A stretch of 64,000 bases of DNA from Parietichytrium sp. I65-24A (taxonomy: Eukaryota > Sar > Bigyra > Thraustochytrida > Thraustochytriidae): contig BLSF01000036.1 in the NCBI GenBank assembly GCA_012862575.1, forward strand, positions 310,001-374,000, read 5' to 3'. Shown here piece by piece: positions 1,804 through 57,211 of this stretch; the stretch's first letter is position 1; each line of letters starts with the position of its first letter. A model generated the notes under the pieces. The model was not told where the DNA came from. It saw only the letters and a program-made list of their open reading frames with translations, and made no database searches. Made by a program: the position numbers and the translations under genes.

Positions 1804-2709
1804 ATGAGCGCCGAAGTTGGGGTCAAGGCCGAAGAGGCGCCGCCAGTGCCGCCAGACAATGATGAGGCGGAGTTTTCCGCGGCCGATGTGAAGGCGTCGA
1901 TGAAGGAGAAGCTCGGGTCGATGAAGGAGAAGCTGGGCGGCAATGGGGACGTGGAGGATCTGAGAGCGTTTTTGGAAGAGCTGCAAAGCTGGGACCAGCC
2001 GTTCAACAGCTTTGCTGTCGTCGCCGGAGTCAGCATCCTGTTCTACGCGACCTACGGGGAGGAGGGCTGGTCTCTGCTGACTCTCTTCTGCTACGCACTT
2101 TTGGTGCGGTTGGTTGTGGTGTCCCAGCTGAAGAAGGCGCTTTCCAAAGTTGAGGGCAACGAAAAGGCCAAGAATACCCTGGAGCCTCTGCTCGAGAAAA
2201 TCATTGCTGGCATCGAAGGTACCTTGGTGATCCCAACCTCCGAGGAGATCCGCCGGCTTGTGAGAGGATTCGGCGGACTTATCGAGAGCAGGCTTGACAA
2301 GGTCTGCAAAGCTGCTAATGAGGCCACCAAGCCAACCGAGGATGGCAAGAAGGTGCTGCATTCGATTCTCCTCCACACTGTCGGATTCTTGATTGTGCTC
2401 CGCTTCATGTCCGTTTGGACGTTGTTCTTTGTTTACATCATGTATCAGATGCTCTGGCCTCCATTTTATGGCCACAACCAAGCGGTCATTGACAAGATGT
2501 ACGGAAAAGCGGCGACCGCCGCGGCCCCCCACGTGGAAAAAGGAAAGGCAAAAGCCGGCGAAATTTTCAAGATTGTGGAGGCCAAGGCAGGGGACGCCAT
2601 TCACAAGCTCTTCGCTGCCCTCGGTGATTTGACTAACACTGTTGTAGAAAAGTACAAGGAGAAGATGCCACAATCTCCTACCGCAGCGAAGGAAGAGAAG
2701 GCCGAGTAG
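1804..2709 (+). CDS. Reticulon-domain ER membrane-shaping protein
   Basis: A protein of about 301 residues with the layout of the reticulon homology domain. Two long hydrophobic hairpins lie at roughly residues 68-109 and 184-222, separated by a hydrophilic loop of about 75 residues. The second hairpin ends in PPFYGHNQAVID, which matches the family signature P-x-x-Y-x-x-[HN]-Q-x-x-ID. Reticulons insert as wedges into endoplasmic reticulum membrane and stabilise tubule curvature. The N-terminus is acidic and carries a short internal duplication, MKEKLGS/MKEKLGG. The C-terminus is Lys/Ala-rich and helical, ending KEEKAE, which could act as an ER-retention-like tail (inference). I chose the ATG at 1804; the frame opens slightly earlier but only with a TTG. 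REEP/HVA22 was considered, but its signature residues are absent. The gene is convergent with VAC14. Confidence 0.8.
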   Translation: MSAEVGVKAEEAPPVPPDNDEAEFSAADVKASMKEKLGSMKEKLGGNGDVEDLRAFLEELQSWDQPFNSFAVVAGVSILFYATYGEEGWSLLTLFCYALLVRLVVVSQLKKALSKVEGNEKAKNTLEPLLEKIIAGIEGTLVIPTSEEIRRLVRGFGGLIESRLDKVCKAANEATKPTEDGKKVLHSILLHTVGFLIVLRFMSVWTLFFVYIMYQMLWPPFYGHNQAVIDKMYGKAATAAAPHVEKGKAKAGEIFKIVEAKAGDAIHKLFAALGDLTNTVVEKYKEKMPQSPTAAKEEKAE

Positions 2710-3130
2710 CCTTTTTTCCATCTCTCTGTTGCTTGCTTACAACTCTGATTCGGGCTCGGCACACGAAGTGCCTTTTCAGAGGTGACATTGATATCATGAG
2801 ATCCAACAGCTTACATATAGAAGCTCTATAAACAAACGAACCTCTTACTTTTTACATTTGTAATATACGTATTCTGAGGGTTCGTGACGACTCATTGACT
2901 ACAAAGGAACCAGGTACCACACTTGTCTTGTGGATGTGAGGTTTTGATGTACTCTTCTGTCAATTAGAAAAAGAATGAGATAGATAGACGTGGGTCAAAC
3001 CCCGTGACCTGGGGACGCCAGAGGACGGCGGCTGTTTCTTAATTTTCAAGACCAAATTTTTGCCCCAACAATTGTGGCAGATACTCGCCTTCAGATCAAA
3101 GCAGCTGGCATATGATTCTCAAAAATTAGT
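2710..3130. other. Convergent 3' intergenic region
   Basis: This holds the 3' ends of the reticulon (+) and VAC14 (-) genes. It is AT-richer than the flanking coding sequence and has no long frame or repeat that I can identify. Confidence 0.5.
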
Positions 3131-5734
3131 CTAGTTTCTGTGCAATTCGTCTGTCGAAAACAAAGACTTGGCATGGACCATTTGCTCAAAAGAATCTACG
3201 ATGCCGTCCTGAATATGTAAAAAGTGTTCCAAGAGTTGGTCTTCGAGGAGGCCCTTTTCAGCAATTTTCTTATCGGTAGGCAGCGACGCGGCCGGAGAGC
3301 TGTCCGACTTTGGCGACGGCGGAGACTTGGAAAACATTGTCTTCTTCACTTTAACAGGCTGGATTTCCGGGGAGCTCATCGCCGCCGGCCGCAGCGATGA
3401 GGGAACTGCAGGCTCATAATAATGTATAGCTTGATGAAGCGCTGTGGCAGCGTTGAGCCGATTGGAAAGTGTGATGTAGGCGCCTGATTGGGGAAGGATC
3501 ATAAGTAGACCGTACAAGGTCTTGAGAAGGGATGGCCTGAACTTGCTGCCTGTATTAACAAGCTCCAGGCGAAGCGATAAATATGCTGGCGACTCTAGCA
3601 GCTGCACTAGTTTGTCCACCTCCATGAGGAAACCAACCGTCAAGTTTACCCCAGCGAGCTGCACGACAAGCTTGCTCGAGAGGTCGTAGCACTCAGACAA
3701 TAAGCATAAACTCAGTGTGGCAACGGGATCTACGCACCAGGTCTTGAACAACGAGATGAATATGTTCTCTGAAGTCTGCTTTCCGTCCAAACAAAGCTTC
3801 CACGACTCCTTCAAAGCGGAGCGAAAACGATTCAGCTCGGGCGCAGTAAGCAAAATCAGGTTCAAAGCCTGGACCATGAGGTGCGCAAAGTCTAGCTCCT
3901 TTTCCTTGTCAATTTCCGCGGCGAGAATCGAGTATACGGTGCTTGCATCGAGCAAGACGCATAACTTGCGAATGATGAAGCTGCCACGACTGTCGAATAG
4001 TGTTCGGTCACTCCTAAATAGCCTAATCACCTGCCCAATGACTTGATCCATTCGACTCGTATTACGCGCGATTCGAGCCAAAACGTCCAAGTCGAGAACA
4101 ACGAGCTCATCAGATGGGTCTGACAATGCCGAAAGCATTGCAGGTGTAAGCTTGCCAATGTGCTCCTCCATGTCGGATGGAAACTTGTCCAGTAACATTG
4201 AGATCCACCGCAAAGAGGCTACCCTCGTCGGCAGCGGGGTAACGGCGTTTGCGCTTGACCCGCCACTACTAGAAGCTGTGTTAGAAGTACCGAGTCGTTT
4301 GCTGTTCATATTATTCACTTGCACTCCAGGAGCACCTCCGGAAACGGCCGACGCGCCGCCAGCCTTGATTTGTTGCGCCGGGTCTTCCTTTGGGGCAATA
4401 GGCTTCACCTCCTCTTGCAGCGGCACAGCCAATTTTTGCGCAACTATGACAATCACCGGCCGGAGCGGGAAGGGCGTCGAGGAGCTCCTCACCAAGTCCA
4501 AAAACATGTCATGCGCCTTATCTGCGACCGTTTTGATCTCCTGCTCGGGGTCGCCCAGACAATTTAAAAGTACGCCAAGGATGCCCGCATACATGAGAAC
4601 AAGCCTATCCCCGAAAAGCTCTATAAAGTTCTGAATCCAGGTGACTGCCGTAATTCGATTGAACTTTTGAGTGCTCGTGCTCTGCCCATTGAGAATTGTG
4701 ACGATTGCAACTAGATGCCTCTCCTCCAGCTTGTCGCGAGGCAAAGACTGGATTTCTCCTAAAAATTGCGAGAGCGCCATGTCGCTCTGCTGGCGAATCT
4801 CACGATTTCCGTCTCCCAACATGTTGAACATACCATCCAAAAATTTGGGCAGGTGTACAATCATATCAATCTCTGGAACCGAGTCCAGAGCCAGAATCCA
4901 GCCTAGCAAAAATTGGCGAATGTACGGGTTTGTCATCTTGAGGTACTTTTCCAGCATAGGGATGAACATTTCGACTTGAAATTTGTCACAGTTCTCGGTC
5001 ACAATCTCCTTTGCGAGACGGTCCAAGAGCTGGGCTCCCTTCTTCACGTCTACATCCACATCCGCAAACACTTTGCAAAGACCGTCAAACAGAGCGTTGA
5101 AATAGGCTAGTATGTGCTTCCGAGCCACCTTGGCAATGTTGTAAAGCGCTTCGCAAGCATAATAACGAACTCTGGCTTCAGGGTCGTCAAAGCACTTGAG
5201 CACTGGAGGCAGCAGATACTGAAGGAACTTGGGTGTTCCCGCGGTGCCCAATCCTAGCGACACACCTGCTAGTCCAATCAAACCACCCTTGCGCTGGTTG
5301 CTGTTTATGGAACATGCGTAGTCCATCGTCAGAATGTTGATAAGCGTCACAACATAATCCTCGCCTCCGCCAGCTCCGCCATTCGTCTTCTCAAGCACGA
5401 CCTTTTCGATCTCAACTGCGCCAGCTTTGCGCTTCTCGTACGTCCTGTCACTCAGCGCTCTGACCACTGCTTGCGACAAGTTCACGCTCGTATACGGCAT
5501 CCCTTTGTTTGCTGCAGCGATTGCGCCTTCCAGCTTGCCGACAACGGGTACACCATTCTTAACGCCATGGTCCGACGAAGGTGGCGTAGGCGGCCTCTCC
5601 TCCACTTGCTCCTGTTGCGCATTTCCCGTTCCTGCTTCGCTCTGCTGCTGAGGAGGAGGGGGAGAATGTTGCTGCGGGGACGGAGACCCGTCTTCTGCAA
5701 CTGCAACGTTGGCACCGTCAGCACCTGGCTGCAT
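3131..5734 (-). CDS. VAC14: VAC14, scaffold of the PIKfyve/Fab1-Fig4 complex
   Basis: An 867-residue protein read from the ATG at 5734; the longer open frame upstream is Ser/Phe-rich and unlike the family. After a Pro/Gln-rich N-terminus of about 80 residues come blocks strongly matching VAC14: ALSDRTYEKRKAGAVEIEK, then RKGGLIGLAGVSLGLG, then RVRYYACEALYNIAKVAR and LLDRLAKEIVTE, all typical of its HEAT-repeat front half. The C-terminal third (about 3540-4060) matches the Fig4-binding region, beginning LFDSRGSFIIRKLCVLLD and continuing through a leucine-rich helical stretch. VAC14 scaffolds the kinase PIKfyve/Fab1 and the phosphatase Fig4 and so controls PI(3,5)P2 on endolysosomal membranes. 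At 867 residues it is somewhat longer than the human protein because of the N-terminal extension and a Ser/Gly linker near the middle. No intron is needed. Confidence 0.95.
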   Translation of the reverse strand: MQPGADGANVAVAEDGSPSPQQHSPPPPQQQSEAGTGNAQQEQVEERPPTPPSSDHGVKNGVPVVGKLEGAIAAANKGMPYTSVNLSQAVVRALSDRTYEKRKAGAVEIEKVVLEKTNGGAGGGEDYVVTLINILTMDYACSINSNQRKGGLIGLAGVSLGLGTAGTPKFLQYLLPPVLKCFDDPEARVRYYACEALYNIAKVARKHILAYFNALFDGLCKVFADVDVDVKKGAQLLDRLAKEIVTENCDKFQVEMFIPMLEKYLKMTNPYIRQFLLGWILALDSVPEIDMIVHLPKFLDGMFNMLGDGNREIRQQSDMALSQFLGEIQSLPRDKLEERHLVAIVTILNGQSTSTQKFNRITAVTWIQNFIELFGDRLVLMYAGILGVLLNCLGDPEQEIKTVADKAHDMFLDLVRSSSTPFPLRPVIVIVAQKLAVPLQEEVKPIAPKEDPAQQIKAGGASAVSGGAPGVQVNNMNSKRLGTSNTASSSGGSSANAVTPLPTRVASLRWISMLLDKFPSDMEEHIGKLTPAMLSALSDPSDELVVLDLDVLARIARNTSRMDQVIGQVIRLFRSDRTLFDSRGSFIIRKLCVLLDASTVYSILAAEIDKEKELDFAHLMVQALNLILLTAPELNRFRSALKESWKLCLDGKQTSENIFISLFKTWCVDPVATLSLCLLSECYDLSSKLVVQLAGVNLTVGFLMEVDKLVQLLESPAYLSLRLELVNTGSKFRPSLLKTLYGLLMILPQSGAYITLSNRLNAATALHQAIHYYEPAVPSSLRPAAMSSPEIQPVKVKKTMFSKSPPSPKSDSSPAASLPTDKKIAEKGLLEDQLLEHFLHIQDGIVDSFEQMVHAKSLFSTDELHRN

Positions 5735-6572
5735 CTCCGCGTAATTGCCAGCAATTAGCTCCGAGCCCCTCGCGTGAAACAATCTCTCGCGAACGCCGCT
5801 CCGAGAAGGGCGCACTTTCGTCTCCTGAAGCGTGACCTTGCCGACGGAAGCAGCTGACCAAGTGGACGAGCGACTGAAGCGAACGAACGAACGAACAAAC
5901 GAGTCGAAAGAAGGAAGGAAAGATGGAGGGAAGGAAGGGAGGTAGTTGACACCAATGTCGAGCACTCTTAACGCTTCGCCGCCCGACGGCTCTTTTGCAG
6001 GATGGCGCCAACTGCGGTCGCCACTGGCACCTTGCTCTCCTCCGAGTCGCTCACAGCTGTATGGGATGGTGTCACTTGAACGCGCAAGAGGATCGAAAAG
6101 CCCATCGCTACTGACAGATTACGGCAGCCCTACCAAAAAAAACAGGAAGCATCGCAGGGTCTACATGGATGTGTCTCAATCAAAAAAGGGTCAATCGATT
6201 TGTATTGTATGTAGTACATGAGCAGCTCCTCGCGTGCCGGCTTGTTCCTCCTCTGGTTTGTTTGTTTGTTTGTTTGTGGATTGCGCTCGAGTCAACTCAG
6301 CAACTGCAAAAGTTTGAGCCCGACGCAGAGAGACTGGTTTAAGAAACGTTGTAGAGATGGGCGGCCGGGAACGAAAATGGAAAAATATCTTCATGGTCAC
6401 TCTAATAATTGCCGTAGGCGACGACTAGGTAGGTGGCGGTGGAGATGGAAGTGTTTGGTGAGTGTCAGGTGCGGACACTGGCGCACGTCAAATCACAATG
6501 TTAATTTGAATCGAGGAAAGGAGGGAAAAAAGAAAGAAGTTTTTTTCACTGTCAATACCCGCAATGCGGATT
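5735..6572. other. Intergenic region between VAC14 and the K+ channel gene
   Basis: It covers the 5' flank of VAC14 and the 3' flank of the channel gene, both on the minus strand. It holds a (CGAA)n-like stretch at about 5878-5900 and a (GTTT)n run near 6255-6277. No gene was recognised. Confidence 0.5.
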
Positions 6573-8889
6573 TCAATCACTATACTTTCTGTTGAATCGA
6601 TCCTCGAAGAATCGATCTTCAGTGTCAATACTCATGCTCCTGCCGAGAACTCCCCGAGCCCAGAAGAGAAGCGCGATCCTGACGGCGCACCATCGAGCAG
6701 TGTCCTTCCAGACCCTCGGGTGGATCTCCATCAGCGCTTTGATTGCCCTGCGAGGAATGAAAATTACCTCGGAGTACGTCAAAAAGCCAATAGTAATAAG
6801 ACTCGGAATGAGCTCACTATTTCTCGGGAGGAGAACAAAGTCATGCATGAGGACCCCGCTGCGGCAATAAATTTGCATCTTTGAGATCTGAGAGCGCCCA
6901 TCCATCATTACTGCGATCACCCCTGAACGCAGAACGTACACTCCGCGTCGCCCCCCATCTCCGTCACGATCGATAAAGGTAATGTCCCTGGCATCATACT
7001 GCTCCAAAGAACACAAGCTAGCAACTGCAGATAAGCTGGATGTCTGGATCTGTGACGGCGAAGGGAGCTTGTTAGTGATATGATGGTTGCATCAGGAACA
7101 AAGAAGTAATGGGAAACTTACTGACGAATGACGAAAGTAAGAGACTTGAGACAAGTCTGACCTCACAAGTGCCAAGCAAATCCGATTTCGTAGTTTCACT
7201 GGAAGGTGCTCCAGAACAGGCGAAATCTTTATGAGTTCAGAGTTCTCCCTGTGTCACGCGAATCACCAGTCAGCATACAGTGAAGAAGAAACGAAGAGAC
7301 AATCGAGGACTTGCAAACTACACTTACCTGGTCCCCATGGCGTTCGAGTATTGACGGAACAAAAACATCCTTGTGTCTTCACGGAGACTTGACGACGTAT
7401 CCTCCTGGAAAAATCCCATAAGACGATTTAATTGCACGAGCCGAGAGCGGAACAAAATCTTGTTTCGACTCATGGAGTCCACGATTCCGATGATCTGACC
7501 TATCACCCATGCCCACACCAGGCCAGCACACAACTCCATCAATGAAACATACCAAATCTCAGCAACAGTTTTGGGGGTGATGTCCCCGTAGCCAATGGAT
7601 GTGGTCGATGTGAACGCCCAGTACAAGCTCAAAGTGTACCTGCCCATTGCAGCTTCCAAAGTGTTGCCGACGACGTCCACATAGCCACTGTCCAGAGCAT
7701 ATACCTGGAGCCAGTTGAGTCGTTCGGGATTCATCAGGTCAACCTCGCGGAAGCTCCCAGCCTCTAGCAAAGCAACGAAGCAAAATATGCAGCCAATCCA
7801 GTGACCAAACACGACAAGAATTGCCACGATGCGTAGCACCTCCCAAAAGTAGCTGAAAGTCCGCAGGCGAAAGTGCAAAATTCTACTGTTTGTCGACATG
7901 ATTTTGTACGCTCGGTTGATGCGAAATACCCGCAGGAGATTCACCAAAGCAATCACATTAAACCCAGTGTTGCCGATCAAAAAGTCATTGGGAACAAAGC
8001 GGTAGAGCGCGTCAACAGGAAAGCACGCCAGCAGATCCACGGTGAACCAGCCTTTTAAATAGTGGGACCGAATTCTCTTCTTACTGAAGACAAGGAGCCC
8101 ATTTGGGCCAATGTAGGCCCTGTGAAAGTTGATGATTACATCAGCGATAAATACGCAGTTGATAAAGGTACCAAAAAGAAAGGCATAACCACTTTGATAC
8201 AGGAGCTCTCCATCTGAAACCCCGACCTGAAAAGGTACATACATGATGATAAAGAAGATGAGCACGAGGACGCCCATGTCCCACCACAGCAAAATAACAT
8301 TATCCGGGAAGAGGACATGATGAGCCTCGGTCCTGAGGACCTCCAGGAACTCTTCTGCCTTTAGGTCCTCCTCTTTCCTTTCTCGAGTTCGATCGAGTGC
8401 AGCCGCCTTGTTGCGCAGTCGTTTCTTATGGAGTGTGGTTCCAAGCTCTATATCCGTGTCCGATGCTGCCCCGGAACTACCCACCTCTGGGTCAATCTCC
8501 ATCTTCAAGCCGTTTATGCTAAATGCAGGGTGGCTACTTGTCTTCAGCACTTCTTCGGCGTTAGAGGAGTTGTCCAGAAAATTTCGATTTCGAAACGCGA
8601 TTGCAAGCTCCTGTCGCTCTTCTATCCTGCGCCGGCTCCTTGCGCTTTGTATCTCATCCTCTTCATCGTCATCACTCATGAATCTCGACCTCGACTCTTT
8701 TATTCTTTGCTCCTCTTCTTCATCTCGCATTCTTTGTCGCGTCTCTTCGTCCCCCGTCTCTTCGTCTTCCGACTCTTCGTCCTCCTCCGCCCCGCTCAAG
8801 GGATCTTCCCCGCACTTTAGCTGCTCCCTGGCCTCATCTTCGTCGATCTCGCCCTCTTCAATTGCTGCCTCCGTTTCTCTGTCCAACAT
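6573..8889 (-). CDS. Cyclic-nucleotide-binding-domain voltage-gated K+ channel (three exons)
   Basis: The gene model is exon 1 8889-7328, exon 2 7248-7122, exon 3 7049-6573, giving 721 residues. The introns begin GTAAGT and end ACAG/CACAG, and the joins keep the frame. The acidic N-terminal tail (Glu/Asp-rich, residues 1-110) is followed by six membrane segments, an S4 with the spaced arginines LLRVFRINRAYK, and a pore loop with the K+ selectivity filter TSIGYGD near residue 430. The C-linker runs across exons 1-2. A cNMP-binding fold in exons 2-3 reads LEHLPVKLRNRI and then YVLRSG. The overall layout is that of EAG/CNGK/plant-type channels: a plasma-membrane tetramer gated by voltage and possibly modulated by cyclic nucleotide. 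The phosphate-binding cassette of the cNMP fold is poorly conserved, so nucleotide binding is uncertain. Confidence 0.88.
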
Positions 8890-9517
8890 GCTTCCTTCGG
8901 TGACCTTGTTCTTAACAACTGTGGTCGCTCCCTGAGAGTCACCCCTCCCCCAGCAGCGGAGTCAACACAGGTTTCCTTTTGCTGCTGTTGGACTCAAGCA
9001 AAGCTTATCTGATGAGTGACATTGACATCCGCAGTGGAGCAGAGCCCCAGTCCGGCAGAACGGGCGAGACTGACCCCCAAGTCGCAGAATCCGTCGGCGC
9101 TTCCCGCAATGTGTCGCTCTTGCAAACCTCTCGGCATTTTGCCTCTGCTTTCTTCCCCCTCAATACCCTCATCTGATAAAACGCCTTCTCGGCCACTACT
9201 CAAACTCTAGCCAGAGTGCAGCAGCACTTGAACAACTTGTACATCCTTGTACCCGGTAACCCGGTACATGTTCGCTCTGACAGGGAATCCTGAATTCTGA
9301 ACAACTGAGCAAACTGAGCTGTGCAAAAGTGCCCCGGGGCGTTGGCACGGCTTTGCAGCTGCGACGGAAGAGGAAAACTGTAAAGTCAAGGGAAACATGG
9401 TAAGGAGGCAGTTTATAAATAAAAGCGGTGATCACGTTTGAAATATTTATAGAGGTCCGCCACGTGCGATCGAGTGACAGAGAAGAGTGACGGACAAGAG
9501 AAGGTTTTAAAAGAATG
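8890..9517. other. Intergenic region upstream of the K+ channel
   Basis: A 5' flank for the minus-strand channel gene and 3' flank of the next minus-strand gene. A TTCAGAATTC-like palindrome occurs near 9285-9300 and a CACGTG box near 9461. No gene was recognised. Confidence 0.5.
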
Positions 9518-14350: not shown

Positions 14351-17300
14351 ATGAGGGAAAGTAAGTGGGTGGAATGGGGTTGAAATGGGCGATGGAGATT
14401 CGCGGCGCTGATGATGAAGTGGTGTGAATGGAAAAGCAGGGGGAAGGTCTACGCCGCAGGCGAAAGGGCAGAAAAAGAGGAAAAGTGGGACAGGGGTGGA
14501 CGAGGAGGCCGTGAAAGGTAAGTTCAATCAAACACTGTGTTTTGAAAGTTTTGCCTGGATTCGCCAATTGCAATATCACTGATTGGAGTTGATGTGCCAT
14601 GCGTCTGCAGAATGGATCTTGTCACAGACTTCTGCCTCCGCATTTCATACGGTTTCCAAGGGACAAAAAACAAAACAGCTCATTCCTGAGTTGCTGGATC
14701 ACATTAGCATAATGTACGTTTTAGTTTTGTTCCCAAGCCGGTGGGGAGGGCACTTTGTCAAGACTAACTGGATGACCTCTGCTTTTATAAAACACAGCGA
14801 GGCAAAGACCTGCGGTATTGCCTCCTTATTCAACAAGAGGCCGGATGAGGACGTCCCAAGGGAGATCTATGAGGAAGACGTTCATTCTGATTTTCAGTGG
14901 AAAGACCCAAACGAAGATGCGACAATGAGACTTCTGGATAAATTTTTACTTGTCACTGCAAATGGCGAGCTTGCGGGCTTAGAAGCCTTGGATGACGAGA
15001 CGCGGAGCGCGGGGAGAATATACTTGACCGGCACAGTCATTGAGCCAGTGCTCCCAAAGGACGGCGAGCCGCTCCGGCTGTGGACCAGAGCTGAACTTGA
15101 GCAGCTTCGATCCAGCGATCGTCTAGTGACCGTGGAATGCAAAGAGTGGTGCCTGGATTTGACCTACGGAGACGAGTCTATTTGGGTCATTTCGGAGACT
15201 GGTGTCTGGTACAAGCTTCGGGGGGAGAATGGACCTGGGTCGGCGTTAGTCCCGTCTCCACTGTACAAGCCGGCATTTGAAGAATCAAGGAAACGGTATG
15301 AAGCTTGCCTGCATATCGCTAGGTTGCTGCAGGATCCAAAAATAGGTAAGAAAGTCTCCTGCGAGAAGCTTATTCAGCAGGCGGTTGACCTTTCGGCACT
15401 AGGAGAATGGCCAGTGGATGAGACTTTTGTCTTGTCTCGAGCGGACTTCGTTTCAGAGCAAGTTGAGCACGTGCAAAATTTCTCTGCCAAGTCAAACGAA
15501 GCATCACAAAGTGGAAGCCTTTTTGCGACGGATTTGCAGAGCAAGCGGTCTTCTCTGATCTCGAAATACCTAGAGCCTGAAATCAAAACAGCGTCTTCCA
15601 ATAAGAAACAAAAGGTGTCTAGTGGCAGTGCGAAAGCCAAGCGGAGAAAGAGCGTTTCGGCTCAATCGAACGGACACGGCTCCGGGGAAGACTCTGACGG
15701 GAATGATTTTGATATGCATGGCTCGGACAGCGATGGAGGACGAACACCGTCATCCCACAAATCACGAGCAAATGTCTGGAGCTTTCCCATGGAGGATTTG
15801 GAACTCATCAGGAGAGCTAGCGAAAGGAGCGACGAGGAGAAGCTGCCAACTCCGATGAAACGCGTGACCGGTGTTGAGCTCAGTCAAGACCCTTTGAGCG
15901 CATTGCCGCTTCCTCCAAAGCCGGAGCCTCTTCGTTCCAATATGAAAGAAGCTGGGCTTGATGATAAGTTTCTGGGTAGCGTCTTAGCGTCTTTTGAAGC
16001 CTTGCAAATTCTCCATGAATATCTGAGGCTCTCCGCTTTTGGGTTGGAGCAGTTCCTCGAGGCAGTTTCTTTTCGCCCGCAGCCAGACACATTCGTAAAC
16101 AGAGCAAGTCAGCAAAAGTACCAGCAAACGCCGAGCTTCATATCCCCGCTGCTGTCAGATATTCTTCAGCGGCTTGTGGAGTATGTATTGGACCAGCCAG
16201 AAAACCGAGAAATTGGGGCGGCAGTGCTCGGCACCGCGGAGATGAACATGGCCGTTAATAGCGGAAAAGGTGTTGGGATACTTCCTTCGGTGAACAAGCT
16301 CTCGTTGCAATCCATCATTATTAAGCTGCTCCTCGAGGTCGAGAGAATCGCGACTCCGTTCGAAGTGAATTCGCTCGTTCGCACAGACCCTTCTGGTGCA
16401 GACCAGCACTCACAAGAAAGCATGGAAGAGCACCTTTTGAACGGTGTGCTCGCGTTAGAAGAAGATGAAGAGAATGATCATTCGAACGGGTCCGAGTTTG
16501 AGTCGTCGGCCAATGAGGATTCACCGAGAACGGCAAAGCAGCTCTGGGAGGACCTTGAAAACATTCAAAAGAGGTACCCTCGCCTGACGGAGTCCTATGC
16601 CCTTGAGCAGTGCAAGGAGATTATTTGCTCCTTAATCGAAGACCATCGGTCCGGACCGTTCAGTTCGAAAATTGACCCTGATGCGCTGGGAATTCCCGAC
16701 TACCTGGACGTGATTGACAAGCCAATGGACCTAGGGACAGTGTGCGATCGACTTTATTCGGGATTTTATAGCGTGGAAAGTGTGGTTCTTGCGAAAAAGA
16801 TTCTGCACTGTCACCAGGAAAATGTTGCCGCTTGGGCGAAGGCCCTGGGCGGCGCGAACTGGAAGCAAGGTTGGTTTTTCGAGTGCCAGGTGTTGCTTGG
16901 ACAGGCAAAAGACGCGAGCAGGACCTATGTGTCTGTGTTGGGCAAGGAGGCGAAGGAGATTAATAGCGCATTTCAAGCTTCCATTTCTGAGCTCGAGTGG
17001 GTCATCAACGAGCGCCGGAAGGAAATTAAAAATTATGATTCTCGGCGAAGAATCTTACGTGACTCTGCCGTGAAGATTCTTCAGGACTTTTCAAAAAAGC
17101 TCACAGAAAATCCCGACGAGATTTCCGAGCAGGAGTGTGAACCTCTTCGCGAGTTTCTCGCTGCACAAGGTCTCAAGATGCTGAAACCCATGCTCATTGA
17201 ATTTCCCCCCCTCGGTCTCAATATTGGAGACGTGTCTTCCACCACGACATACTTTCGTTCCTTCGAGACCGTGGATCTTGAGAGATTACCAGACTTCTTC

Positions 17301-20300
17301 CAGGTTGCTGTGACTAAAATATTTCCTGAGCAAGCGTGCAAACACGAGAGTATGTGGAACAAAGTACAACAAGGGGACAGATTGATTTACATTGGTGCTC
17401 AACCCACCAATGGACTCGACAATCACCAAGTCGCAAGTCTCTTCAAATCGTGCGCCTTTCCGGTGCGCCTTATTTTCGGCCGATCCGATCCTGCAATGCT
17501 TTCGATTCCTCCCAAAGCACTTGACTTTGCTAGCAGAACGGAAACTCTTCCGATTTCTGAGAATCAAGGATCCACTGCAAAGTCCCTTGATCAAAGTCGA
17601 AGGGACGGCTGATGGAGACGACGACGAGGAAGACGACGAGGAAGACGACGACGAGGAGGAAGAAGGGCAAGGTGGCGGCCTTGATGCTTTCTTCGCAGAT
17701 GTGCAACTCGTATTTAACAACTGTTTCAAGTACAACTCAAGACGAGCCGAGATTTCGTCGTGGGCTCAGAGCCTTAAAGACAAGTTTGAAGAGATGTGCC
17801 AAGCCAAAATCACTGCAAAGCTTGAAAGAATGGACGATACTCGGCAAAGGATCAAATATGATAATCAGCATCGTCGTCACGAAGGCGAAGTAACCCTCTT
17901 TGAAGTCGTCGAGCACCTGTGTGTGTCAGACATGGCAGACATCCCTCCTCGAATTCGGTCCTGGCTTGTTGAGTGGCTCTTGGAGTGCGTCCTTCAGTCG
18001 CAGAGTGTGAGGATGTTAATCGAGTCAGGGTCCGCCCCGCCAGAATTGACAGCACGGGCTCACCGCCCTCGCGGTTTGCGCCATTCGCTTAGTATATCCT
18101 CCGGCATCGAGGCTCCGAATACCCCAGGGGGGTCAGGTGAAAGCGCGCTGGGAATACTTAAAAGCCCATTGACCAGGCTGCAACCTCTAGGGACCGATCG
18201 CTTCCTGAATCGATATTGGTGGTTTGATGGAGATCCGTGTGGAAGAGTTTTCGTGGAAATGCTCGAAGGCGTGGATCCCAGTGAGCAGATAGGAGAGATG
18301 GATCTGGCAAAGCAGGCTGAGGCCATTGGAGCGCGAAACCTCATGGAGACAGATCTTCTCGAAAAGCAGCTTGAGATGAAGTGGGGCGTGCTGTCGAATA
18401 CTGCGCAGATTGACGCGCTCGTGTCATCATTGAATCCACTTGGCCGCGCCGAGAGCCAACTGCTTCAAAATCTTCAAGTTTACTATCGTCGAATCGTTTC
18501 ACGCATGACGCTTGTAGAGCGTGGAATTTTGTGGCGACAAGAGACGCGATCGAACCACATCCAGGAGGTGTTCGAGGAGAGTTTCGAAAATGCTGAACTC
18601 GACGCGAAGGTGTCCTATGGAATTCAGGTTGCAGCCCAGAGCAGAGTTCGGAAGAGCCAAAAACCAATTGCAGATAGCCCGCCTTCATTGCCGTTGCCTA
18701 CAACCAATGCGATCATGCCTCTCCGCGTTCACCATCTGCAATATGAGAGCAAGCCTCACTTTGGGTGGATAAAGCGTGCAAAAAGCGAATTGGCTGCCTC
18801 GACGCACTATGTTGGACTTTTAGAGTATTCGGATCTCGACGTGTTGTGGGCAAACGATGGCCCGCATTTTGGAGAGCCGCGGTCGGACCGCGATAATCTT
18901 ATCTTGTTTATGCTCAATTTCGAGTCTATCATCTGGGAGTCTCGACCACCAGCTGCTCTTGGTCGGCTTTGGTCTTGGCCACGCGTCCGCAAGTCATGGT
19001 CGATGGCTTTGGAGGAACTGAGAAGTTCACATCCGCACGGAAAGCAGATATGGGCTGAAACCACCAGCTCATGGCTCCCGGCGGACGAAACGCTAGGCAA
19101 GTTTGACGCCGACTTTGAGCTTCGGTTCCTAGCTCAAAAAATCCTTCAGCTGGAGTCCGAATGTCTGTCTCACTGGTGCACCACGGGCACAACAAGTGAG
19201 GCGAGCACGGCCATCAACATTCAGTGGCGAGCTGATCGGATGCGATGGCGGGTCCAGGTTAGGCTTGCAGGTACACTCTCCGAGCTTGGCGGCTTAGCAG
19301 CGGAACTCATTCTGAAGGCCATTCGATGGCAAGACACTGACGATTGCCTCAAAGCTATTCTGTCCCAGCACCCCACAAAGTCGCCAATTGCGCGAACGAG
19401 GGTGAGCAAGCTAGATTCAGGAGCGTTCTGGGGTCCCGAAGACCTCGTTCAAGACTATTGTCTTGAAGATGTAACCTATGGTCAGGTTTTGTCCATTTCC
19501 TCATGCGCCGCACATTTTGGCTTCGTAGGCTTTGGAGCGTTTTTAGGAGTTCACCTTTATGCAAATTACTTTGGAAAGCTGTTGCCCATGACGGAGCGGC
19601 TGACAAGCAACTTTGTGCGGTGCTCCCACAACCTTGCAAGCTCAGCCACAAGCGTCGCGTCACAGTCAGCGCAGGTTGGCGCCTTGGGCTTGTACGTAAC
19701 TTCTCGTTCTACCGCGCAGTCCGCAGGCGGGAATGCGGGGCGTATGAGTGGTTCGAATACCACTATCATCGAGTCCATGACCATGGTAAAGAAGGCGATT
19801 TTGCAAGTGATGGGGGCACTGAATATGCGCCAGCGAGATGTGGCAGAGCAGCTTAGTTGTTCGCAATCGCATTTGAGCTTGTGGCTCAACTCGAAGGATG
19901 AGACTGCAAAGAAGAAATTCGAGCAGCGTATCATCAACTGGGCTCGTATCAAGAATAGTGTACACGGCTGGGTTAAATCGGAAGAGGTTTTGGACGCGCA
20001 TGGCAGTCCCGTGGACATAAATGAAGGAATCGAGCCGATCCCTACAATGCCCACAGGTGCAGGTCCTGGCGAGTCCGCAAATCCCACACTCTGGCAGAAA
20101 ACCCACGATGCGCTGTTGCCACTCCTGTGCACTACCTTCGGAGTCTCTGCTCCGGATCACCTCACATCCGGTGCCCCAACCCCTTCTCCAACGCTGCTCT
20201 CAGATGCTGGGTTCAAGTCGCCAACAGGAAGCCACGTTTTTGGCAAGGCTGCAGGTGACCTAAATCTCCATACCGCAAAGAAGTCAAGCTTCACGGATGT

Positions 20301-21582
20301 AACATCCACCTCTCCCGCAGGCGTGCAGCATCCGTATGGTACGTTGTTCAAGAGCGCGGCAAGCCTGCGCTGGGAGAATGTGATTCCTTTCAAGCCTGCC
20401 GTGTGTCATCCGCGCGAGCAGCAAGAAGTAGTCGATTACCGGCGCTGGCTTCCGATTTTTTCCACTCGAGTGCGCGAAAAACTTGAGGCTGCTCACTTTG
20501 GCACAATCGTCTCCGGGTCGACGATAGTGTATTTCCCGGAGGGCCACGCATTTGCAAATGCGCACGCAGAGCTTCGGATGGCCGCAGAGATGAAGCATGG
20601 CGGCCGTGACTGCGCGTATGGGGGGCAAGTAACGAGTGTACCCGCCACAAGGGAGCCGATGGTCTGCAATGTGGTGAGTGTCTCTTTTCACATTGGTGGC
20701 GGCGAACTTGGTGGATCGGTTGCCCCTTCGCCGTACTGTGAGCTTGAGCTCGAGCCGATCGCCAAAGACGACTGGGCTTGCAAAGAGATTCCTATGCTTG
20801 ATCTGGGTCTTCAGGATATGTCAGCCACCAAGCTGGAGGCATCTTCGTACAAGCTGCGACGAGTCCTTTACCAGGTGATGCTGCACCTGCTGTATATGGA
20901 AGAAAGTACGATATGTATGCAAGGAGTGTCTTCAACAGTGTACAAGGACCTGGAAGGTATCGTCGGCAAAGATCACATTGTTGATCTTGCCTCAATTTTG
21001 GCGAAGGTCACCAACGGCGAGTATCAGTCAGCTGAGGAATTCATCAGAGATTTGACTCAGATGGCTCGCTTGACAAGGCGCTATCTCGCGCAAGTCCACC
21101 ATTACAATTTCCGCACGGTGCAAGCTGCAAGTTCACTAGTGTTGCATGCCAAGCTGCTGCTTCGCCACCCTGACGCGCTTTGCTCTCTCCGAGAAATCAG
21201 CAAGCCTTGTCTAGACACAAATACGCGTTCAGGAGCAATATTTAAGGTGGTCCATCGGCCGCACTTTGAGAGCGAGATGCCTGGGTACCTGGTCCCTGTT
21301 GAATGCGCACTGGATTCGCTCTACCTGAGATCTAATACTGGAAAAGCGATTCCTTGGAGCCTCGGTATGCGAGTCACTCGCCAAACTTCCGCCGCTGAAG
21401 ATGGCAAGAGTAGTGGGTTGATTGTGGGTTTTAGACTGGCTTCGAGTGATAATGCCTTGCCGTGGGGATGTCTTGTTGTGCAGTGGGATGTGGAGCCAGA
21501 AGACCATGATCTCGATGTTACCCTGGATTTGCCAAAATTTGCACGCCAGCATGTAAACCCCTGGGAGGTGCGCCCGATCTAG
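14351..21582 (+). CDS. Composite chromatin regulator: RFD, bromodomain interrupted by PDZ-like insert, WHIM, HTH, BRWD/PHIP-like C-terminus
   Basis: One large gene. The proposed exons are 14351-14360, 14440-14517, 14611 to the insert, then to 21582. The first two introns start GTAAGT, and their phases join exactly to the long frame. A third in-frame intron (14714 to about 14799, GTACGT..ACAG) is possible. Domains in order: a DNMT1-type replication-foci domain (about 14925-15310); a basic/Ser-rich linker; bromodomain front half (about 16640-16775, PDYLDVIDKPMDLGTV); an insert with coiled-coil and PDZ-like domain (PLGLNIG...GDRLIYIGAQPTNGL); bromodomain rear half (LDAFFADVQLVFNNC, about 17678-17760); WHIM-like segments (to GTDRFLNRYWWF, about 18195); a helix-turn-helix (about 19800-19960); and a BRWD/PHIP-like region with VSGSTIVYFPEGHAF, a degenerate second bromodomain and terminal VNPWEVRPI. 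The frame changes between 17480 and 17610. It is probably a nuclear reader of acetylated chromatin linked to remodelling. Confidence 0.8.
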
Positions 21583-53397: not shown

Positions 53398-56300
53398 CTA
53401 AGGGTCCACCTCCATATCAGCAGAATCTGACTGGTGCGGAGGCGGAGGAGGGGTAGCTGGCTCCTGCGATCCCAGCGACGTTCGCCGCGGCTCTTGAAAC
53501 ATGGGGTCGTTGAGGTCCATGTACGAGCTACTCTTGCGCAGCAATCCGCCCTTCTGGTTGGCCGTGTCGGATATGTTCAGCCCCATGAAGAATTCGCGGT
53601 AATCGATTGTCCCGGATCCGTCGCGGTCAAGACCCTGACGCAGCTCATCAATCTGCTGAGGGGTCAACGGGGACTCGAGTAATTCGTTCACGGCATTGAA
53701 TCCATTCATAAACTCCTCGCTACTAATTACTCCGTCGCCATTTACGTCAAACATGCGGAACGCGGCCTTGAGGTGGATCCGGTTCTGATACAGAACGTTG
53801 GCGACTTGTTGCACAACTCCTTGCTTCCACGACTCTGATCGTGCGCTGCGATCATCCACCCAAAATGCGTCGATAAATTCCAAGTAATTCATCTTTCCGG
53901 AGTCGTTGGTGTCGATGACGCGGAACAGCCGCGTGGCATCCTGCTCCGAGAGGTCCAAGTCGCAATAGTTTTTGAGAGCATGTACCCAGTCAGCCATCTC
54001 TATGACGCCTTTGCCTGATCTATCAAACGCTTTGAACGCCTCCCGAAGAGTATCCGTCTTCTTGAAAATCGCTTTGCAGGTGGTCGTCAACGCGTTCACT
54101 GTCCATGGGTCCATGGCGTTCCAGTCCAGCTTCATTTTGTGCGCCTTGCGAGGAGAGATTGGTGCGTCCGGCATTTCGAGCATTGTCTTCTCCTCCAATG
54201 CGCGCATCGACTCGGTACGGACGGTCTTGTGAACCGGCCGCTCTGTCGGGCGATTTTGCTCCAACGAGGCAGATACCTTACCAAAGGAAACCCCAAATCT
54301 TTCTGCAAACTCCTTAAAGTCGATATGCGCATCGTCATCCACGTCAACAGACCGCATTAGTTCGAAGATCTGCTGCTCAGTCAAGCCTACCTTGAGATTG
54401 CGCAGGGTTTTGGTAAACTCTTCGTATTCAACCTTGCCGTCGTTGTTGGTGTCAAATTTCTTATACGCAGACTCTAAATCTGCACCCACCAAACTGTAGA
54501 GCTTTTCGCAGATGCGCCGAATGATGCCATCCTGCCAGGCAGAGTCCTCCTGACGCATCTGGATCTGGAATCGCGAGAGAAACTTGGAATAGTTGATGAG
54601 TCCGTTCGGCTCGGATTCAGCCAAACGATTCTGGTAATGAAGGAAAGGCAGGTCGAGTCCCAGCACATTGGCGAGGCCAGTGGCCCACTCGACACGAGTG
54701 ATCTTGCCGTCGTGGTCCTGGTCGTGCTGAGTGAAATATCTGAACAAATCCACGCGCTTGTCGCAAATGTTTTCGATGATCATGTTGATGGCGTCGCGTT
54801 CCAATATTGCTTCTCGCTCCTCGTCCGACAGGAACGTCCCCTTGTCTACCGCGTGCGCATAAAACTGCTGAATTTCTGGCTGCAGATCCGGTCCAAATGC
54901 GATGAATGCGCCCTTGTTGGTTTGAGTTCCGCAGTATCTCGAAGCGCTAAAGATGGTAATGAGGCGGCCATTGTGAAGCACTTCGAATCCTTCCGGCACA
55001 CATTCGTGGGACCGAACGACCAAGGCGATCTGATTCATTGCGCAGAATTTATTGGTTACCAAAGGCCCAAACTCGCACCCAGCGCCGCGCTCGGACGGGC
55101 GCTTGTACTTTAGAGGTCTGGTGTAAGTGGCAGTGGGGCGAGGATCGGACCAGAGCAAGTCTTCGTAAATGCGGTCCTCTGCTGAACGGCCTTCCAAAGG
55201 AGGCTCCCTTTTGCGGTTGATTGCGCGAATTTGCTCGATCTTGACGTGGTCGTTTCGAAACAGGCCCCCGTGGCAAACAAACACCCGAGACTGAATCAAG
55301 GCACACAGAGGCAAGGAGTCAAACATGGCCTGGCAGAGCATGTAGAGCTTGAGCGACGCAAGGCGATCGCCAGGCCCGAACTGGTTCATGCTTTGCCTCA
55401 TCGCGGTGGGGCGATCCATGGAGTTTTTCCTTGCCTTCTTTAAAGGTGAGGTCAACGGCTCTGGGCGATCGCGGGGTTTCATGGAAACGGCGACAGATTC
55501 GTGGCCATACTTGGTTAAAAGCTCTTCCTCGAAGCCCATCCAAGCGTTTTGCGCGCGGGCCTCGTGGTTACCGCGGTTTAGAAACACGCACTTTGGAAAC
55601 AGAATTTTGAAGGCCAACATGGACGCCACGATTTCGCAGCCTTTGGGGCCGCGGTCCACAAAGTCCCCATTGAACAGATACCAATTCTTCTCCGAAGGAA
55701 GCCCGTTGATGGTGAAGATCGTGTAAAGGTCTTGCAGCTGGCCGTGCGTGTCCCCCACCACAGTAAGTTTGACGCCTTCCGGGATAACAATATCTTGAAC
55801 AGTCTCCTCCGCATCAAACAACTTTTTGCCGTGCAATAAGATCAACATGAAGTACTTAAAATGGAGAACCTTATCCACCTTGAACGCATCGAGCATCTCC
55901 AAGACAGACTCCATTCGAAGTGGAAACTTCAAATGTACGCCCTCGTAGTCAGCACCAGGGTTGATTACTTGGAGCATGTCCGCCTCGAGCTCCTCCACCG
56001 CATCGGCTGCTGCCTGCTGCAGCTCCTCCACAGTGGCTCCCATGAACAGGTCGTCTTCTTCCGAGCTCTCGGCAGAGTTGACACTTTGCTCGTCCGTGGC
56101 AGCGGCAGGGGCTTTGACTGCTGAAATGTCCGTGTCCTCTTCCATCGGCGTGACTTCTTCGTCTCTAGAATCGTACATGGACTCATTCACAATCGTCTTG
56201 GCTTTCAGCTGTTTCGTGGCTTTCTCTACCGCCTTGCCCTTTCGAAGGCCCACCTCTTCAAAGTGGTTATCAAGAACGTTCCACGTGCGAGCAGCTTGCC

Positions 56301-56634
56301 TTGCCTTGACTTTCTTCTTGGCGAGATGCGTTCTGAAAATATTCTGCAGCTTTGTGGCCGCTGCAAACTGGTCCGACCAGCGCTCCACGAATCTCCTGGA
56401 TAGCAGCAGCCCGTGTTTGTCTGGGCACTTGAAGTAAGACTTGCCTTTCACCGTACCATCGTGCTTGCCGTCCGGAGTCTCCAGCTCCACCCCGATGTAC
56501 ACACCCGTGTCAAACTCCACCGGGCCCACGAACTTGACTTCCCCGGAGAATTTCGCCATCACAATCACCTTGTCCCCCACGTTCAGCGCATGGCGGTCAT
56601 CCGCCGCCGCGCCGTCGTCTGCTGAAACCTCCAT
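53398..56634 (-). CDS. CAP-Gly / IQ / PPEF-type Ser/Thr phosphatase with eight EF-hand loops
   Basis: A 1078-residue protein from the ATG at 56634; the frame continues upstream to a GTG, without an obvious Met. Residues 18-86 form a CAP-Gly domain (GVYIGVELETPDGKHDGTVKGKSYF), a fold that binds the C-terminal EEY/F of tubulin and EB1. Residues 91-111 are an IQ motif (ATKLQNIFRTHLAKKKV). The phosphatase core has GDTHGQ (294-299), GDFVDRG (323-329), GNHE (355-358), HGG (455-457) and RSHE (541-544), so all PPP metal-binding motifs are intact. The C-terminal 450 residues contain EF-hand loops starting near 638, 673 (degenerate), 728, 764, 871, 908, 963 and 1003. PPEF phosphatases usually have two or three. 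It is inferred to be a Ca2+/calmodulin-regulated phosphatase anchored to microtubule ends. Confidence 0.9.
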   Translation of the reverse strand: MEVSADDGAAADDRHALNVGDKVIVMAKFSGEVKFVGPVEFDTGVYIGVELETPDGKHDGTVKGKSYFKCPDKHGLLLSRRFVERWSDQFAAATKLQNIFRTHLAKKKVKARQAARTWNVLDNHFEEVGLRKGKAVEKATKQLKAKTIVNESMYDSRDEEVTPMEEDTDISAVKAPAAATDEQSVNSAESSEEDDLFMGATVEELQQAAADAVEELEADMLQVINPGADYEGVHLKFPLRMESVLEMLDAFKVDKVLHFKYFMLILLHGKKLFDAEETVQDIVIPEGVKLTVVGDTHGQLQDLYTIFTINGLPSEKNWYLFNGDFVDRGPKGCEIVASMLAFKILFPKCVFLNRGNHEARAQNAWMGFEEELLTKYGHESVAVSMKPRDRPEPLTSPLKKARKNSMDRPTAMRQSMNQFGPGDRLASLKLYMLCQAMFDSLPLCALIQSRVFVCHGGLFRNDHVKIEQIRAINRKREPPLEGRSAEDRIYEDLLWSDPRPTATYTRPLKYKRPSERGAGCEFGPLVTNKFCAMNQIALVVRSHECVPEGFEVLHNGRLITIFSASRYCGTQTNKGAFIAFGPDLQPEIQQFYAHAVDKGTFLSDEEREAILERDAINMIIENICDKRVDLFRYFTQHDQDHDGKITRVEWATGLANVLGLDLPFLHYQNRLAESEPNGLINYSKFLSRFQIQMRQEDSAWQDGIIRRICEKLYSLVGADLESAYKKFDTNNDGKVEYEEFTKTLRNLKVGLTEQQIFELMRSVDVDDDAHIDFKEFAERFGVSFGKVSASLEQNRPTERPVHKTVRTESMRALEEKTMLEMPDAPISPRKAHKMKLDWNAMDPWTVNALTTTCKAIFKKTDTLREAFKAFDRSGKGVIEMADWVHALKNYCDLDLSEQDATRLFRVIDTNDSGKMNYLEFIDAFWVDDRSARSESWKQGVVQQVANVLYQNRIHLKAAFRMFDVNGDGVISSEEFMNGFNAVNELLESPLTPQQIDELRQGLDRDGSGTIDYREFFMGLNISDTANQKGGLLRKSSSYMDLNDPMFQEPRRTSLGSQEPATPPPPPHQSDSADMEVDP

Positions 56635-57211
56635 GCCCTCTCTGCGACTCTGATCCGCGCTCTTTTCCTCGCCACCAGATACCGTGCACACCCCGAGCGG
56701 ACTTGGCGCCTGCGGAGCTTGCGGAGGATGTCGGGCCTGTTGATTCTGCCTTCCCAGGTCTTCTCTAAAGCGTTCCGGCCTCCTTCCCGCCTTGAGGAGG
56801 CTGGACAACGCCTGCTGAGCCTTGGAAAACACCTTGAAGAAGCGCCGCTCTTCCCGCCCAGCTCACCTATTCAACTGCTTCTTTCCCACGATTTCCACAC
56901 TTATTTTGCTCTGCTCCTGTGTTCCGGGGCCCGTCGTCGCCTTCTGCTGCTCTCTATTTCTCTGTTTCTCTATTTCTCTATCTCTCTGTTTCTCTGTTTC
57001 TCTATTGCTCCAGCCTGATCTGATCTGCCCAGTCGAGCTAGTTTCTTTCCTTCTCTCAACACCTAAAACAAAAGAGGCTGGCTCTCTAGCCGGCGGTTTC
57101 TCCGCGCGGACACCTGCTGTGCGTGTCAGTCCGCCTTTCGCGCGTGTCCTCGCTCGCGTTAGCGGCCAGTAGGGCTTTGTATTGGAGGGAAGGAGGGAGG
57201 GAGTGAGAGGC

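Follow-up and report, generated by a model that had tools for sequence, protein, structure and literature searches.

The window analysed here, the whole 64,000-nucleotide (nt) stretch at positions 310,001 to 374,000 of contig BLSF01000036.1 from Parietichytrium sp. I65-24A, contains a gene at about 14500 to 21582 whose first bromodomain is divided between two reading frames. Our results indicated that this gene probably encodes a chromatin protein in which a helical stretch, a PDZ-like domain and an acidic linker lie, as protein, inside the loop between helices A and B of bromodomain 1, and that the reading frame changes once within 17484-17612. The coding character of the insert, a match to PDZ domains, a relative with an insert in a single frame and the predicted fold support this reading, from which we infer the function of the protein and the cause of the frame change. 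Bromodomain 1 would hold acetylated chromatin, and the PDZ domain, held out on a helical stalk, would bind the tail of a partner protein. The single frame change would most plainly be explained by a base-level difference. If this reading is true, a PDZ module resides within an acetyl-lysine reader.

Coding character and domains of the insert

The genome to which the window belongs comprises 42.5 Mb in 172 contigs, and its genes are mostly without interruption. In the focal gene, the front frame is open from 14583 and is closed by a TGA stop at 17610-17612; within it, an RFD-like domain and a weak DDT-like one precede the front half of bromodomain 1. In the rear frame, which is open over 1398 codons (17386-21582), the rear half of this bromodomain is followed by a WSD domain and then by a second bromodomain. 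The initial annotation had placed the two halves about 300 codons apart in different frames, separated by a space of about 280 open codons in a front frame ending at 17612. All of this was confirmed by the Pfam matches and the stop (Table 1), and the insert was found to remain open for 277 codons. The rear half alone reached 21 bits, slightly under the Pfam cut-off of 21.7; it retains the asparagine of the YN motif (17734-17736, within the FKYN at 17725-17736), which we take to be the acetyl-lysine asparagine of bromodomains. The bromodomain profile scored 47.2 bits, split over two stretches, when the insert was present and 59.5 bits (E 3.2e-16) when the halves were joined, and the earlier statement that joining gives an ordinary bromodomain was thus correct.

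The insert looks coding throughout, in the front frame for most of its length and in the rear frame for its last part. A codon-usage score was computed in 150-nt windows after training on 15 segments of the window, the outer parts of the focal gene itself supplying two of them. The front-frame score was above zero in all windows starting at 16380-17430 (0.6 to 10.5). Around 16780, where an intron start had been proposed, it fell from 8.7 to 4.4 and then climbed to 10.5, so that no loss of coding character occurs there. The rear frame took over in windows from 17480 and peaked at 10.7-12.8 in three windows spanning 17530-17779, over an acidic tract that the proposed splicing would remove.

The PDZ-like domain claimed in the initial annotation was recovered with a hidden Markov model (HMM) made with 17 PDZ domains from this genome: the insert scored 23.5 bits, against at most 5.6 for 500 shuffled versions and the reversed sequence. 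The match runs over profile 25-80, the later portion of a PDZ domain, the first strands being judged by eye. In addition, a phmmer search against solved structures matched the insert to a PDZ domain of InaD-like protein (structure 2dlu, E 0.0043) and to another PDZ domain (E 0.052). In a single-sequence model of the insert (mean predicted local distance difference test score, pLDDT, 42.5), the PDZ part had block means of 23-43 and was predicted as strand-strand-helix-strand at the expected place. The helical segment described earlier likewise agreed with our data, with positive codon scores and a long predicted helix. A BAR-like nature of this part had been suspected from weak BIN2 matches (E 1.4 and 1.5). 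It was rejected by an HMM of four BAR candidates of the genome, three of them above the Pfam cut-off, which placed the helical part at rank 36 in a set made up of itself and 500 shuffles, and Pfam gave no BAR match in it.

A structure prediction, which the initial annotation had recommended, favoured the bromodomain part of this reading and left the PDZ part at low confidence. In the read-through model, built with one chosen frame step at the stop and 19 aligned rows, all of them bromodomains, the pLDDT block means were 90-98 for the front half (residues 11-70) and 86-98 for the rear half (residues 371-430). The long helix (residues 104-183) reached 65-84, and the PDZ part was predicted as strand-helix-strand at the expected place. 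Both predicted halves form one bromodomain across the insert, which aligned with 7l9l (BRD3 BD2) at a Z score of 17.2 and a root-mean-square deviation of 1.4 A over 110 residues (model range 7-417); a plain Foldseek search gave weak E-values, the best being 0.0037. Only bromodomain entries were among the structure-alignment rows shown, and because the bromodomain fills this list the absence of PDZ entries is uninformative. In the bromodomain fold, the helix A/B loop and the acetyl-lysine pocket are at opposite ends of the helix bundle, which allows the domain to close around an insert at this site. The model shows that the bromodomain is able to bear the insert and does not show that it does.

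A relative of the gene was found on contig C18 of the same genome (L002, G000:C18:67500-76500; open reading frame 2274-8999, minus strand). Its protein contains FYRN, FYRC, TFIIS-N-like, RFD-like (22.0 bits, at the cut-off), WSD and WW domains together with an interrupted bromodomain, which is to our knowledge an unusual combination. The bromodomain is split at the same loop (profile 1-52, then 54-83) within a single open frame. Its insert of 97-99 residues consists of 30% D/E and ends in CLGGG before helix B; at the end of the focal insert there are an acidic tract and GQGGG. Similarity between the two proteins was found in both halves of the bromodomain (front, E 1e-11; rear, 2e-4), in the WSD region (2e-9) and in the RFD region (1e-4).

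The frame change and the competing explanations

If the PDZ-like domain is encoded in the front frame, this frame must be read to at least 17483, and the change must lie within 17484-17612. The codon score fixes the exact place poorly: its optimum was at 17587, and every position tried from 17386 to 17611 was within 3.4 units of it. The initial annotation had offered, as its second choice, a coding insert with a one-base frameshift near 17590. The evidence favours the coding insert and a single frame change; our plainest guess for the cause of that change is a base-level difference, either an assembly error or a strain mutation.

Several results weigh against this reading. Pfam's own PDZ model gave no match on the insert, and a genome scan with PF00595 gave 29 places, among which the insert was not found. 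The C18 insert contains no PDZ by domain scan or by our HMM (-1.8 bits); it therefore backs a coding insert at this site, not the PDZ itself. No relative with the same PDZ insert was found in the search, which covered the species' own genome, and a genome-wide search for a second copy of the insert returned its own locus only. The front-frame codon score drops from about 17130 (4-5) and further from 17330 (0.6-2.2), and the score is noisy, as other frames reached up to 5.9 and the true rear frame fell to -3.8 near 18030. The read-through model rests on one chosen frame step and bromodomain-only rows, and its PDZ part is low (27-56). Finally, the frame change is present in the assembly, and the zone 17484-17612, in which no base is repeated more than three times in a row, lacks the longer runs at which errors would be expected to gather. 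In a hand tally of kinase loci, frame breaks were absent from 115 of 125, and those in the remaining 10 were all resolved by introns, which makes frame-breaking base errors look rare in this assembly. This tally came from 138 rows, with 125 of 353 first-look candidates scored and a few unbroken domains starting or stopping short of the profile ends. It speaks against careless assembly, but for a finding selected because it was odd we still consider a single error the plainest guess.

Splicing was evaluated with the 14 introns worked out in this genome, which came from the ten kinase frame breaks resolved by introns, with two more from a bromodomain gene. Every donor among them conforms to GTRNGT, with GTAAGT in nine, GTACGT in three, and GTATGT and GTGAGT in one each; the introns are 69-165 nt long. 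The splice model was trained on 13 of them, L056 being left out; where several acceptors fitted, one was picked by eye from protein continuity, and that of L010 is doubtful (score -13.9). The favoured proposal of the initial annotation was an exitron at 16780-17671, which would yield an ordinary bromodomain when spliced out and a truncated protein with the PDZ domain when retained. The GT and AG do exist, they span 892 nt and would join the frames, and the gain from 47.2 to 59.5 bits on joining fits this proposal. The donor GTGTGG, already called weak in that annotation, scored -0.46, and 217 of 1669 coding GTs were as good. The acceptor scored -13.4, whereby 2275 of 2378 coding AGs did at least as well, and it is purine-rich, with 6 pyrimidines within the last 40 bases. 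The pair ranked 199th among the 337 frame-restoring GT..AG pairs. Coding extends across the segment, which contains the in-frame TGA at 17610, its removal would take away the coding acidic tract that has an acidic counterpart in C18, and the C18 relative keeps its insert in frame. The exitron was therefore rejected as extremely improbable.

A different, facultative intron at 17350-17533 (or to 17536) would also join the frames; its splicing would give the full protein with a broken PDZ, and its retention a protein ending at 17612 with a whole PDZ. Its donor, GTATGT, is of the genome's type, its end reads TTGAC...CTAG, its 184 nt restore the frame, and with a score of 3.05 it is the top restoring pair under 300 nt and the third of all 337; the apparent rarity of frame-breaking errors also speaks for it. 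It would, however, halve the PDZ match at 17304-17483, and it exceeds the length of every known intron. In addition, of 332 frame changes simulated elsewhere, 69 could be restored by a pair of 60-250 nt with a score of 3.41 or higher, above the 3.05 obtained here, so the pair is not significant and provides no evidence on its own. Since GTRNGT occurred 42 times in 30,619 nt of coding sequence, about one is expected by chance in the insert, and two are present (16997 and 17350). We consider this intron unlikely. The highest-scoring restoring pair, 16870-17533 (664 nt, score 3.41), was discarded: its donor does not fit GTRNGT, its length far exceeds that of the known introns, and most of the insert would be lost with it.

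The frame might instead change during translation. Under a programmed +1 ribosomal frameshift, possibly sited at the UGA stop of the front frame, the gene would produce a short form ending in the PDZ and a long form with both bromodomains. The codon scores permit a change at 17611 (0.59 below the best), the acidic tract begins directly after the stop, and the rarity of frame-breaking errors again fits. We recognised no known +1 signal, although no search for one was made; there is no relative to show conservation; and a search for antizyme gave no match, but its controls gave nothing either. These points make a programmed frameshift quite improbable. A bolder version of this idea seems very improbable: one gene would make two proteins by a programmed frame change placed after the nested PDZ, the short one carrying RFD, DDT and PDZ with half a bromodomain, and the long one being a double-bromodomain protein with the reader closed around the PDZ. 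If the frame change is real, the gene would switch, in a way that can be tested, between short and long versions of a chromatin protein. Equally doubtful is the explanation that a recent mutation broke the gene in this strain and that the rear part is no longer made. A frame change truly in the genome could mean such a loss, but no stop interrupts the 1398 codons of the rear frame, and the WSD and bromodomain matches in it are intact, so any loss of the rear part must be recent. A coding insert with one frame change remains the reading that we prefer.

Loop inserts elsewhere and further features of the gene

Bromodomain matches were found in 36 rows of the genome, of which 24 (22 domains) were compared and 12 were left out, three of these being the focal gene's own. 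Loop length was counted from the PMD motif to the asparagine of helix B, with a median of 31 residues; L027, L031 and L037 lay outside alignment A1 and were measured separately. At least 7 extra residues were present in 7 of the 22 other bromodomains: L029 (7), L036 (8), L037 (8) and, with 15-97 residues, the four domains L032 (15), C57a (21), L035 (30) and C18 (97). The read-through form of the focal bromodomain has 301. In the alignment, the C57a insert precedes the conserved tyrosine, which places it where helix A ends or the loop begins. The helix A/B loop would have taken up inserts repeatedly within this one genome. At L003 (G000:C57:133500-142500), a single very long frame contains two bromodomains, of which the first has its 21 extra residues at the end of helix A or in the A/B loop. 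We also observed a polybromo-like array of six bromodomain matches at G000:C7:100303-103713 with a common open-frame length of 1870 codons.

Near the start of the focal gene, GTRNGT donors at 14518 and 14714 may begin two introns, predicted from their sequence motifs (Table 1); a further GTRNGT lies at 16181. Between the WSD domain and the second bromodomain, 19771-19902 (MRQRDVAEQLSCSQSHLSLWL) showed weak matches to HNF-1_N (E 0.012) and HTH_3 (E 0.15) and is perhaps a CUT-like DNA-binding part. The C-terminal end, at 21346-21579, had an ARF_AD match (E 0.0036) under the cut-off and presumably resembles the region after the bromodomains in BRWD/PHIP proteins. Elsewhere in the window, at 53401-56862 on the minus strand, CAP-Gly, calcineurin-like phosphatase and several EF hands occur in one protein.

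Table 1. Positions in the window of the domains, insert parts and candidate splice segments of the focal gene
Feature	Position	Strand	Basis or remark
Possible 5' intron, 93 nt	14518..14610	+	GTAAGT ... CTGCAG; predicted from sequence motifs
Possible intron, 84 nt, frame-preserving	14714..14797	+	GTACGT ... ACACAG; predicted from sequence motifs
RFD-like domain (DNMT1-RFD)	14913..15380	+	Pfam E 1.4e-7
DDT-like domain	15975..16184	+	17.6 bits, under Pfam cut-off of 22
Bromodomain 1, front half (helices Z, A)	16611..16772	+	Pfam profile 1-52, 26.3 bits
Insert, helical part	16779..17198	+	Front-frame codon score positive in all windows; helix 104-183 of the model
Proposed exitron, 892 nt	16780..17671	+	Rejected; GT at 16780, AG at 17670-17671; rank 199 of 337
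Insert, PDZ-like domain	17199..17490	+	HMM match 17304-17483; outer borders by eye
GTATGT ... CTAG pair, 184 nt	17350..17533	+	Score 3.05, top frame-restoring pair under 300 nt; bisects PDZ
Frame-change zone if PDZ is kept	17484..17612	+	End of PDZ match to front-frame stop; change-point score flat
Acidic tract and GGG, insert end, rear frame	17611..17676	+	Codon score; 17/23 residues D or E
Bromodomain 1, rear half (helix B onward)	17677..17760	+	Pfam profile 53-80
WSD domain	18172..18480	+	Pfam E 2.8e-17
Second bromodomain, partial	20962..21084	+	Pfam profile 33-71; 25.2 bits at C36:330932-331084

Comparison with known systems

The initial annotation knew of no published bromodomain with a PDZ in this loop, and the literature that we searched on bromodomain inserts and domain architectures agreed, as no PDZ inside a bromodomain turned up among the titles and abstract openings listed. 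PDZ is counted among the generalist inserted domains, with 13 host H-groups, in a study whose main text does not contain the word bromodomain (PMC13114784). Exitrons are described as having all core splice signals, although with weak sites, and no stop codons (PMC8758631). The focal segment resembles them in being coding and having GT and AG at its ends, and differs in its poor splice signals and its stop. As in human bromodomains with loop insertions, the insert is borne in a loop of the bromodomain; unlike those, it lies in the A/B loop, is about 300 residues long and contains a PDZ-like domain.

The closest likeness of the whole protein is to the accessory subunits of ISWI remodellers, ACF1/BAZ1A and WSTF/BAZ1B, in whose domain make-up the WSD (D-TOX E), DDT and bromodomain are combined in one long protein; the focal protein combines a WSD domain and bromodomains with a DDT-like match. 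Of WSD and DDT, the pair by which ISWI accessory (BAZ/ACF) proteins are recognised, the first was clear in the focal protein and the second was under its cut-off. The focal protein differs from these subunits in that it has no PHD or WAC match and bears an RFD-like domain in front, and in that its first bromodomain precedes the WSD domain and would carry a PDZ in its loop.

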